From contig MPNN01000004.1 of the NCBI GenBank assembly GCA_002239045.1, forward strand, positions 186,001 through 250,000: a DNA stretch of 64,000 nucleotides, in the 5' to 3' direction. Every line of letters starts with the position of its first letter. Position 1 is the first letter of the stretch. The notes beneath the pieces were generated by a model. It had not been told where the DNA came from and did no database searches. It worked only from the letters and a program-made list of their open reading frames with translations. Shown here piece after piece: positions 38,054 through 42,160 of the stretch. The position numbers and the translations under genes are program-made. This DNA is from SAR202 cluster bacterium bin127 (GTDB taxonomy: Bacteria; Chloroflexota; Dehalococcoidia; Lucifugimonadales; Lucifugimonadaceae).

Positions 38054-41000
38054 CTAAGGGCTGGGCACCGCCCAGCGACGTCGCAGGCCTATGGCGATGA
38101 AGGTTCCAATCACTACGGCGGCGATACCGAATAGCAGGGACCAGAGCGCCATGCTCGATGCCGGGGCCGTGCCACCAGTGTCAGGTGCCACAGGCGTTGG
38201 CTCTGGCATCGCCGTCGGGATCGCTGCCGGAGCGCCGGAGCTGCCTACCGCCACTGAGGCTGGCAGGTTGCTCAAACCGCCGCATACCATCGTGCCGGCA
38301 GTGTTGTTCAACCGCACCTGCGCCGACAGGATCGTCAGCGAACCGTCGCCGTTGATCGCCACTACCGCCAAGTCCGAGATGTTCGATCGCAATGCATCCG
38401 GCAACGGCAGACAGACTGTGGCCGGGTCGTCGAGCGCGTAGCTGCTGACCGCGGCGCCGGAACCGTCTACGGCATAAACGCCGTACATGTTGCCGCCGAG
38501 GGTGTATCGCTGGTGCGTCATGCCGACGTTCGAAACCGCGCCTTCGTCCGACATCCGGACTCCGATGAACTCACCGTTCGGAACCGCACCGGAAGGCGCA
38601 ACGATCGAGTAGCCTTCGCCGCTGAACGTCCCGCCTTCGACCGGCGTGAAGACTTCGTACTGGTTGCCGTCGGAGTCTGCAAGGAGCTCGGGGATCGCGC
38701 CAGGCGGGTTCACCGGCGCTTCCACTTCCGGCTGAGCTACCGACGGACGGCGGACGCGGACTTCGAACGTAGTCTCGCATCTAACTTCATCTGTAGCCGG
38801 GGCACGGCATGCCGAGAACGGCGTGGAAACGCTTATCGTGTAGGTCCCCGACTGAGCCGGAGCGGTATACGTGACTTCGCGGCCGTTGCCTTCGAAATTC
38901 CCTCCTCCGCCATCATCGCTCCACAAGAATCTGATCCCGTCCGCGAGATCGTTGTCCTTGATATCCTGCGCTCCGTAGACGTCGACCCCTATGCGGATGA
39001 GGTCGCCTGAACTGACCGTCACGGACCGGATCGTCGGTTCGATCTTCGATATTAGCGCCCGGCCCGTGTCGAAGGTGAGACTGGTCGACGTAGTCAGGGC
39101 GTAGACCGTGGCATCAGTTCGTCTCGGCATAGTGGCCGCCAACTCATCGGTCACCGAATCCTTGATGGCCGATTTCGACGGGTAACGCAACATGCTGGCG
39201 CTCAGCGAGACACGATCGGGCGAACGGTCTGTTTCCTGAAGCGTGTACTCGAAGCAGAGCTCACCGTTCGGGGTTGTTTCAACGTAAACCGCATGACGAG
39301 TATCATCGCCCAGCATGAAGCTTAGTTGGGGCTTCCCGTCCACCACGACATCGCGGTCGAACAGAGCCTTGAACCGCAGCTTGTCGCCGGCCGTGAACAG
39401 CTGGCTCGGGTTGTCGAAACTCATGCTGACGATACTCGGCTTAGGATCGAGAACGAACTCGAAACCGGCGTAGCAGTCGGAGACTCCGAGACAGAATTCA
39501 TAGGTGCTGCTGGGCCGGTCGGGATGGAAGGCCGGCAACACGACCGATGCTCCCTCAGGGATGCTGAACGCATTGGTCGTCATCGTGGTCCCGCCAGTGA
39601 CTGGGACCACCGACTCGATCGCGCCATCCTTGACGACCTTAGGTACAAAGTCGTAGGGCGCGCCCTCGCGGATGTGCAACTGCTTCATCGTGGCGTCAGT
39701 GGTGTCATCCACAACCGAGACCCCGATCTGGAACGGAGCGCCAGGGTTGGATTGCAGTTGAATGGTCTTCAACGCACTCACTCCGTCGAACAATCCGCTA
39801 GGCAGACCCAAAAGCTCGTTGTTGGTGAGATGGACATCCCGCAGCGCGCTCGATCCCGAGAACAGATCGCCGGGGAGGGTTGCGATCTCGTTGTCGTCCA
39901 TCAACAGCGTTCGCAAGGCGCTCAGTCCGTTTAACGCGTCTTCATGCACCGTATCGACCTCGTTGTCCTCGACCGACAGGAAGATCAGGTTGGACAAACC
40001 CTGCAAAGCGTTCGCATCGAGCGATGTGATCCCGTTGGACTTGAGGTCCAATCCGACAAGATTGGTCAAGCTCCTCGCACTCGCCGGAATCTGGTTGAAT
40101 CCAGGGTTGTTCGTAATCTCCAACAGACGCATCGTGCTAACGGGAAGCCCGTCGACGATTCTCGACCCATCGCCACTCAAGCCGACGTTGTCAAGCCTCA
40201 AGATTTGTAGCCCGCCCAAACCTGCGTTCTCAACGTGGTCGATGGCTAGGATTGGGTCGCCGGTACGACGGAAGAAATACTGCCTGACTAAAGCGCTGGT
40301 TTTGGTGAAGCGAGCGAACGACGCGCCAGTGACGGAGGAGGCGAAGCTGGTGTCTTGGATCTTGAGCTCTTCAAGCGTGGTGGGCAACGCGTCGACAACG
40401 TCAGCATCGACCTCTAGCCCGTCCCAACCGAACGAGAGATAGTAGATAAACCGGTATCTGTTCGCGTCTGCGAAATTTTCTGCCAACAACTGCCATGCCG
40501 TCTTCGATTCGTCTATCACTTCGACACTCAAATCGATTCCGCCCAGTCCCAAAACCAACGCGAACGTTCTGAACGTGGCCGCTGCCGCTGTGATCGAGCA
40601 AGTTCTGTTGAAACGTGATCCGAAGGCGGTCAGATAATCGTTGAAACTGCCACCCGCGATCCACGAATCGGCGAAAGGATTGTTGTCAAGTGTCAGGTTG
40701 CGAAGACAGTATGTGAGCACACCGCTTGTCTTCTCTGAGTCTTCGACGAAACTCGTCACATAAACGTCCGGCAGTTGCGACAACTGATTGTTGTGAAGTG
40801 CAAAATCGAACAGCCAAGTCAGTTTCTCGAGTTCCAATCCGTCGAGTGACCGGATTCTATTGTTGTCCAAATGGAGGATTTGCATTCCGGCATTGTTACT
40901 AAACAAACCGCTCGGCAACGATGTGATCTGGTTGTTGGACAATCTCACCTCGTACAAACCAGGATTGTTGTCGAACAAACCGCTCGGCAAGGACTGCAGC

Positions 41001-41827
41001 GAGTTGTTGTGCAGTCGCACTTGCTGCAAACCTGCCAGATTGCTAAAGATGCCGGAGGGTAGAGAGCGCAGATTATTGTCGTTGACGTTTAAGCGTTGCA
41101 ACGATGAGTTGCTTCCTACCGTGACGTCCGCGGTCAAACGATCGAATAGCCCTGCAGGTAATGTCGGTAGTTCGTTGAAATGCAGAGAGACGCGCTGCAA
41201 ACTAGACAGCCCATCGAACAACCCCGCTGGCAACGATCGGATTTTGTTGTAGCTGAAATAGAACCTCTTCAGCCCGGCCATTTCGTCGAGGGCATCGGAA
41301 TCAATAGTAGTAATCTGGTTACCGACGAACTCTAGACGGATATCAGCACTGGTGGCTGTAGACGGGAACCCTTGGAAACCGTCGAACCAATCGGCTTTGA
41401 AGTGGGTCAGTCGGTTGCCACTCCCGACCAATATCTCTAAAGCGGGCAGACCGCTGAAAACGCCGGCCGGCAAGTCTTCGATGTCGTTGTTGGAAAACCT
41501 CAGATCCGTCACCGCGTCAAGACCGTCAAAGATGTCGGCCGGCAATTCGCTGATCTCGTTGTTCTGAATATCGAGCGTCGTCAACCCCGTCATCCCGGCG
41601 AAATCACCAGACTTCAGAGACGTGAAGCCAGGTTTTTCGACGCGGCGGAAAGTTGTCAAGCTAGCCAGATCGTCAGATGTAATGTCTGCGCAAGCCGCAA
41701 TCCTCGCATCAACGTTCTTACCATCACGATCCAACTCCGTTGCCCGAGCATCAGGCAACCGGTCCCAAATGCCCAGCTGAACTTCCTCCGTGCGATCGCA
41801 GATCACAGTTGAAGCTTGAGCGGACAC
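38054..41827 (-). CDS. Large LRR surface protein with SwmB-like, Ig-like and C-terminal anchor regions
   Basis: The track start is a GTG at 41827, but the frame is open further upstream and encodes a signal peptide (LYLSLLFLIASIAII... VGVVSAQA), so this start is not the real one. The upstream ATGs at 41960 and 41972 join this frame only if one base of a nine-base G-run is lost. The mature protein has two blocks of about 24-residue leucine-rich repeats (LxxLPxGLFDGLxxL), roughly residues 60-400 and 540-720. These are followed by an SwmB-like domain (FDRDVVVDGKPQLSFMLGDD), an Ig/PKD-like module (VTYTAPAQSGTYTISVST), a proline-rich stalk with APDTGG, and one transmembrane helix with RRR after it. 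Adhesion or contact at the cell surface is likely. Confidence 0.85.
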   Translation of the reverse strand: MSAQASTVICDRTEEVQLGIWDRLPDARATELDRDGKNVDARIAACADITSDDLASLTTFRRVEKPGFTSLKSGDFAGMTGLTTLDIQNNEISELPADIFDGLDAVTDLRFSNNDIEDLPAGVFSGLPALEILVGSGNRLTHFKADWFDGFQGFPSTATSADIRLEFVGNQITTIDSDALDEMAGLKRFYFSYNKIRSLPAGLFDGLSSLQRVSLHFNELPTLPAGLFDRLTADVTVGSNSSLQRLNVNDNNLRSLPSGIFSNLAGLQQVRLHNNSLQSLPSGLFDNNPGLYEVRLSNNQITSLPSGLFSNNAGMQILHLDNNRIRSLDGLELEKLTWLFDFALHNNQLSQLPDVYVTSFVEDSEKTSGVLTYCLRNLTLDNNPFADSWIAGGSFNDYLTAFGSRFNRTCSITAAAATFRTFALVLGLGGIDLSVEVIDESKTAWQLLAENFADANRYRFIYYLSFGWDGLEVDADVVDALPTTLEELKIQDTSFASSVTGASFARFTKTSALVRQYFFRRTGDPILAIDHVENAGLGGLQILRLDNVGLSGDGSRIVDGLPVSTMRLLEITNNPGFNQIPASARSLTNLVGLDLKSNGITSLDANALQGLSNLIFLSVEDNEVDTVHEDALNGLSALRTLLMDDNEIATLPGDLFSGSSALRDVHLTNNELLGLPSGLFDGVSALKTIQLQSNPGAPFQIGVSVVDDTTDATMKQLHIREGAPYDFVPKVVKDGAIESVVPVTGGTTMTTNAFSIPEGASVVLPAFHPDRPSSTYEFCLGVSDCYAGFEFVLDPKPSIVSMSFDNPSQLFTAGDKLRFKALFDRDVVVDGKPQLSFMLGDDTRHAVYVETTPNGELCFEYTLQETDRSPDRVSLSASMLRYPSKSAIKDSVTDELAATMPRRTDATVYALTTSTSLTFDTGRALISKIEPTIRSVTVSSGDLIRIGVDVYGAQDIKDNDLADGIRFLWSDDGGGGNFEGNGREVTYTAPAQSGTYTISVSTPFSACRAPATDEVRCETTFEVRVRRPSVAQPEVEAPVNPPGAIPELLADSDGNQYEVFTPVEGGTFSGEGYSIVAPSGAVPNGEFIGVRMSDEGAVSNVGMTHQRYTLGGNMYGVYAVDGSGAAVSSYALDDPATVCLPLPDALRSNISDLAVVAINGDGSLTILSAQVRLNNTAGTMVCGGLSNLPASVAVGSSGAPAAIPTAMPEPTPVAPDTGGTAPASSMALWSLLFGIAAVVIGTFIAIGLRRRWAVPSP

Positions 41828-41911
41828 GACGCCAACGCGTGGATCCCTCGGATCAAACTCAATAATCGCTATTGATGCAATTAGAAATAGAAGGCTTAGA
41901 TAAAGAGTTGG

Positions 41912-41929
41912 GTGCGCCCAAAAGGGCGC
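41912..41929. repeat. Perfect hairpin inside the predicted signal-peptide region
   Basis: TGCGCCC and GGGCGCA flank AAAA. On the coding strand it encodes part of the signal peptide n-region (IAPFWA) and begins 11 bases after the G-homopolymer. Confidence 0.6.
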
Positions 41930-41939
41930 AATACGTCTA

Positions 41940-41948
41940 CCCCCCCCC
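41940..41948. repeat. Nine-base C/G homopolymer at the 5' end of the LRR gene
   Basis: Nine C on the plus strand, i.e. nine G on the coding strand. With nine, the ATG frame from 41972 or 41960 reads M-Y-K-I-G-G-G then TAG. With eight (or eleven) it runs straight into the signal peptide and LRR protein. AAAGG lies nine bases before the ATG at 41972. A phase-variable switch or an assembly/sequencing error both fit. Confidence 0.75.
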
Positions 41949-42160
41949 TATTTTATACATATGTCTCAACATTGTGTCGGGCCTTTCGAATCAAACTGTT
42001 ACCAGCTCGCAGTTTGATTCGAAAACCATAACACATGCTTCTAAACAACGCATACTAGGATTCGGCATCCAACCTGCTGGCATGTTGCTCGTTGAATCTC
42101 GCAACACGATTCTTCAAACAACTGTAGAAAGGTTCCAATGATCAAAGGAACGAAATGAAC

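Follow-up and report, generated by a model that had tools for sequence, protein, structure and literature searches.

The question raised by this locus is whether a run of nine G, lying just ahead of the frame of an LRR surface protein, determines if that protein is made. The run occupies 41940-41948 on the minus strand (C9 on the plus strand), exactly as the sequence-only reading had it, and is the sole G/C run longer than 7 in the window, by which we mean the whole 64 kb stretch of DNA analysed. On one side of it are two leader ATGs and on the other an intact frame that encodes a signal peptide and the LRR protein; it is the proposed site of slippage. The leader (41949-41972, minus strand) reads ATG TTG AGA CAT ATG TAT AAA ATA (MLRHMYKI), with ATG starts in one frame at 41972 and 41960 and a TTG in the same frame at 41969, and continues through GGG GGG GGG straight into TAG (41937-41939, minus strand). 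It had been claimed that the two ATGs meet a stop with nine G and enter the signal peptide with eight or eleven, and the frame arithmetic agrees: in silico, both run into this TAG at n = 9 and into the LRR frame at n = 2 mod 3 (8, 11). Two properties of a homopolymer contingency locus are present here, a slippable tract in the start region and a downstream frame that, on paper, unit changes in tract length open or close.

Upstream of the leader, the ribosome site that had been noted does exist but is only weak: a Shine-Dalgarno-like GAAAGG, read from the sequence at 41982-41987 (minus strand), 9 nt 5' of the ATG at 41972. The interval from the end of folE to the leader contains a perfect 14-bp inverted repeat, TTCGAATCAAACTG...CAGTTTGATTCGAA (41985-42023, minus strand), with a strong RNA fold (region z = -5.6), and its 3' arm overlaps GAAAGG; the hairpin could be a folE terminator or serve in control of the leader, both being possible, and its role remains open. 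No sigma-70 promoter was found 5' of the leader.

The argument depends on the reality of the frame that follows the tract. This frame (38054-41947, minus strand) comprises 1,297 codons and a stop, encodes LRR_8/LRR_4 repeats and finishes with a hydrophobic stretch followed by RRR; it is free of stops from 41947, the preceding in-frame TAG being at 41950-41948, down to its own stop at 38054, and the chance of an open frame of such length is about 1e-21. Its signal peptide is encoded by RRIAPFWAHPTLYLSLLFLIASIAIIEFDPRDPRVGVVSAQA (41813-41938, minus strand). The LRR frame contains no ATG, GTG or TTG between the G9 tract and the signal peptide's hydrophobic core; the first start listed by the ORF finder, GTG 41827, falls late in the signal peptide. 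Homologous LRR proteins of the same genus have signal peptides, and a ..AQ-T-x-ICDRTEEV.. junction beyond them, that align with the window frame; the frame upstream of 41827 is thus real coding sequence, and the earlier view that the gene lacks a proper start and has its signal peptide encoded in frame upstream is upheld. Where LRR homologues lack a tract they start at an ordinary ATG, from which it follows that tracts come and go. Homologues whose starting ATG follows the run would have spoken against a switch; the case does not arise, since the run-less homologues use an ATG of their own and no ATG follows the run in the window gene. One could suppose instead that the 5' frameshift is fixed and the gene a young pseudogene, which accords with its being off in the assembly; it is scarcely credible for a frame of this length without a stop, in an arrangement that recurs at many loci.

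That recurrence is seen first in the source genome, which has 23 separate G/C-run loci of at least 9, and a single A-run of 9; the sequence taken from it was that surrounding tracts and homologues. An automatic test places nine of the 23 (11 with two members added by eye) immediately ahead of a signal peptide, as against 1.4-1.9% of random positions (1.4% of positions in the window, 1.9% in other stretches of the genome); for 9 of 23 the binomial P is about 2e-10. The test is a hydrophobicity rule, no trained predictor having been used, and several of the 9-11 loci are paralogues and so not fully independent. The products of the tract-preceded genes are LRR, RCC1, cadherin-like and DUF5122 beta-propeller proteins. 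Between leader start and signal peptide the coding strand carries G tracts in the window (G9) and at L045 (G14), L050 (G15), L055 (G13) and L059 (G9), the last of these (L059:12766) preceded by a leader, LRNMYYI, similar to that of the window, and C tracts (C10-C12) at L042, L043, L047, L048, L054 and L056. The genome also has 12 runs of exactly 8, none of which, by inspection, occupies this position. Phase states in the assembly are mixed: the window, L059 and L050 are OFF, and L045, L055 and L054 are ON.

In eight of the 11 signal-peptide tracts (L055, L045, L050 and the C-tract loci except L054) there is an in-frame ATG after the run, and translational control by the tract is therefore not forced at these loci. 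They lend some weight to the idea that the window gene, too, starts after its tract, at a non-standard codon such as ATT 41932, or that the tract belongs to an untranslated 5' region, where it tunes transcription or the structure of the mRNA; so does a G10 located about 50 nt before the ATG of an N6_N4_Mtase + HNH methyltransferase gene elsewhere in the source genome (L060:4336-4345; G000:C20:271835). We regard this as very unlikely for the window gene: there is no ATG, GTG or TTG after the run at the window locus, L059 and L054, where control of translation by the tract is forced, nor at seven loci in other genera, making ten such loci in five genomes.

Many other G-runs of the genome were considered as members of the switch set and set aside, being within an unrelated TTCCGGCTTTCGCCGGAATGACG(n) intergenic repeat. 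Another dispersed intergenic repeat, GGATTCCGGCTTTCGCCGGAATGAC (L046, L049, L051, L052, L053, L057 and L059:2436), often adjoins a G-run and is likewise unrelated to the set. Probable assembly artefacts were also seen, in the form of G/C-rich, corrupted-looking duplications at L050:13098-13132 (G000:C8:21597-21631), L043:1924-2030 and L047:4134-4241, one of which sits inside a coding region; in view of this low-complexity sequence at L043, L047 and L050:13098, tract counts are uncertain by one or two.

Could the window tract itself be such an error, the true length being fixed at 8 (or 11) G and the gene simply ON behind a Gly-rich leader? Homopolymers invite errors, corrupted-looking repeats do surround some tracts of this assembly, and there are no reads to consult. 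A count wrong by one would, all the same, leave the switch hypothesis standing, and an error leaves unexplained the enrichment of long tracts ahead of signal peptides, the conserved motif described below and the existence of paralogue pairs that differ by several G and have identical flanks; we think it unlikely, without dismissing it. The source genome has one pair of paralogues in opposite states, L045 with G14 (ON) and L050 with G15 (OFF), and the related genomes have more: in G046, L268 (G9) is ON and L261 (G11) is OFF behind the same leader, and in G050, two paralogues with identical 50-nt flanks have C17 in a continuous frame of 681 codons (L232) and C21 in a frame that is broken (L251). 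Adjacent Mod-like N6_N4_Mtase paralogues in G046 have G12 (L302:1495-1506) and G11 (L305:1496-1506), both out of frame with the upstream part. Tract length thus differs between paralogues in all four pairs (G14/G15, G9/G11, C17/C21, G11/G12). For the window locus no second allele was found: an alignment scan of the genome contigs detected no conserved stretch, and a scan with the single protein returned only homologues of the C-terminal domain and no allele of the tract. Viral contigs had no relative of the LRR N-terminus and no site with the motif followed by G7.

These length differences bear also on the possibility that the run is a recoding site, on which RNA polymerase (or the ribosome) slips, keeping part of the product in frame at all times with no need for heritable switching. 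Homopolymers promote transcriptional slippage, and several tracts are out of frame with downstream ORFs that are intact. A recoding site is expected to keep its length or a stimulatory context, however, and we do not observe a conserved length or phase with a fixed context: paralogues have 9-15 G in all phases, some being in frame in the DNA, and tracts of C on the coding strand occur too. Recoding is on these grounds improbable.

In other genera of the order, G-runs stand before lipoproteins, membrane proteins and DNA methyltransferases, and are also found inside long membrane-protein frames, as at L181, where a G13 interrupts one. At L293 the tract precedes a gene of the PMT family, a PMT-type glycosyltransferase and membrane protein. 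A C16 is located near the 5' end of a Mod-like N6_N4_Mtase gene in G007 (L119:1494-1509); this gene and those of L302 and L305 are candidate phasevarions of the order. Concentration of tracts at surface, glycosylation and restriction-modification genes, which we took as a further criterion of contingency loci, is met by the 9-11 of 23 at signal peptides together with the PMT, N6_N4_Mtase and lipoprotein genes of the relatives. A similar leader, ..LNSLWRALAARYQNISTG(n), is present upstream of the tract at L284-L309, in several genera and before unrelated genes (lipoproteins, membrane proteins), as if a 5' leader module were shuffled between genes.

A second feature common to many of these G-runs is a 12-base motif, GAACATnnGTnC, just 5' of the run on the G-carrying strand. 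Of 250 genomes of the order, 9, from 9 genera, contain exact GAACATnnGTnC followed by G6, at 26 sites in all; the reversed control occurs once. A weight matrix built from the other genomes ranks the signal-peptide tracts of the source genome above all its other tracts, and apart from one duplicated tract the distance to the run is constant at 17-20 bases. At the window tract there is a degenerate copy, GAGACATATGTAT (of AGAACATAAGTAC; 41955-41967, minus strand, offset -19); it and the copy at L059 are weak and next-ranked (p = 0.07 each), but their offset matches that of the strong copies (-17 to -20) at the other signal-peptide tracts. L055 is the exception, with no copy at its tract. Across loci the motif is read in three frames (RTIV, EHKY, NIS/NIG), and it also adjoins C-runs of the coding strand; it is therefore conserved as DNA, and conservation as a peptide is rejected. 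We also rejected a LexA/SOS-box operator (GAAC-N4-GTTC regulon): the genome has just two exact copies of GAACANNTGTTC, of which one adjoins a G-tract. We know of no conserved motif 5' of the G-tract at any described contingency locus, and a limited literature search likewise gave none; the motif is the new element of the finding. A tentative reading, to which we give rather less than even odds, is that motif and G-run form a dedicated DNA cassette of the order, in which the motif seeds, maintains or targets the tract; the outcome would be a motif-marked phasome with members among eukaryotic-like surface proteins, membrane glycosyltransferases, lipoproteins and Mod-like methyltransferases. The motif might, for example, recruit a protein that raises slippage, or motif and tract might spread together into new genes.

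We conclude, with about three chances in four of being right, that the window G9 is a poly-G phase-variation tract, a translational contingency tract that is OFF in the assembly. The sequence-only reading had called the setting typical of slipped-strand phase variation, and in anatomy, gene class and the presence of tracts at the same position elsewhere in the genome and order it is; the switching itself is our inference. From a leader ATG, ribosomes would translate through the G tract and, only where n = 2 mod 3, on into the signal peptide. Slipped-strand mispairing in replication would add or remove G, and single cells would then alternate between ON, with an LRR protein secreted to the cell surface, and OFF, with a peptide of about 11 residues; the sequenced form, with 9 G, is OFF. 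Variation of tract length in living cells is likewise inferred, in the absence of reads or a second strain, and display of the LRR protein at the surface is an inference too. A mutator background through loss of mismatch repair was considered and rejected: MutS is present in the source genome and nearly all its relatives. With mismatch repair retained, slippage rates at G9 may be modest. The window locus is one of a large set, apparently not described before, of surface and modification genes under G/C-tract control in this genome and its order.

If this is true, some of these uncultured Dehalococcoidia diversify their surface by chance switching, and the proposal is directly testable, as G-tract lengths can be read in existing metagenome reads. 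The motif beside the tracts prompts one to ask whether a sequence-specific mechanism controls how mutable the tracts are. The clade is presumably sponge-associated, an assumption that rests on what we know of some relatives. In sponge symbionts, eukaryotic-like proteins of the kind targeted here have been proposed as mediators of contact between host and microbe (PMC6306507).

Most known cases of poly-G phase variation come from proteobacterial pathogens, and we found nothing in the open-licence literature on phase variation in Chloroflexota, Chloroflexi, Dehalococcoidia or sponge symbionts. Beyond the pathogens, replication slippage at homopolymers controls a surface structure, the sortase-dependent pilus, in the host-associated non-pathogen Bifidobacterium breve (PMC9187656). 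The B. breve switch concerns two pilus clusters in an actinobacterium, as opposed to a genome-wide set, and its abstract reports no motif. Slipped-strand phase variation at poly-C and poly-G in type III methyltransferase genes is documented (PMC3711429); the N6_N4_Mtase frames broken at G12 and G11 (L302/L305) and the C16 near a 5' end (L119) resemble such phasevarions, a likeness that holds for set members in related genera and not for the window gene, which is no methyltransferase. The closest parallel is with the poly-G/poly-C contingency loci of Neisseria and Campylobacter. Of polyG/polyC loci of 7 or more, 29 are reported for C. jejuni NCTC11168 (PMC4965091), and HmbR/HpuAB switch by poly-G within the frame (PMC3786947). 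The loci described here share with them a homopolymer of at least 7 in the 5' part of the reading frame, ON and OFF states set by frame, and surface protein, glycosylation and methyltransferase targets. They differ in phylum, in targets that include eukaryotic-like LRR, RCC1 and cadherin-like proteins, and in the conserved DNA motif that lies 5' of many of the Chloroflexota G-tracts.
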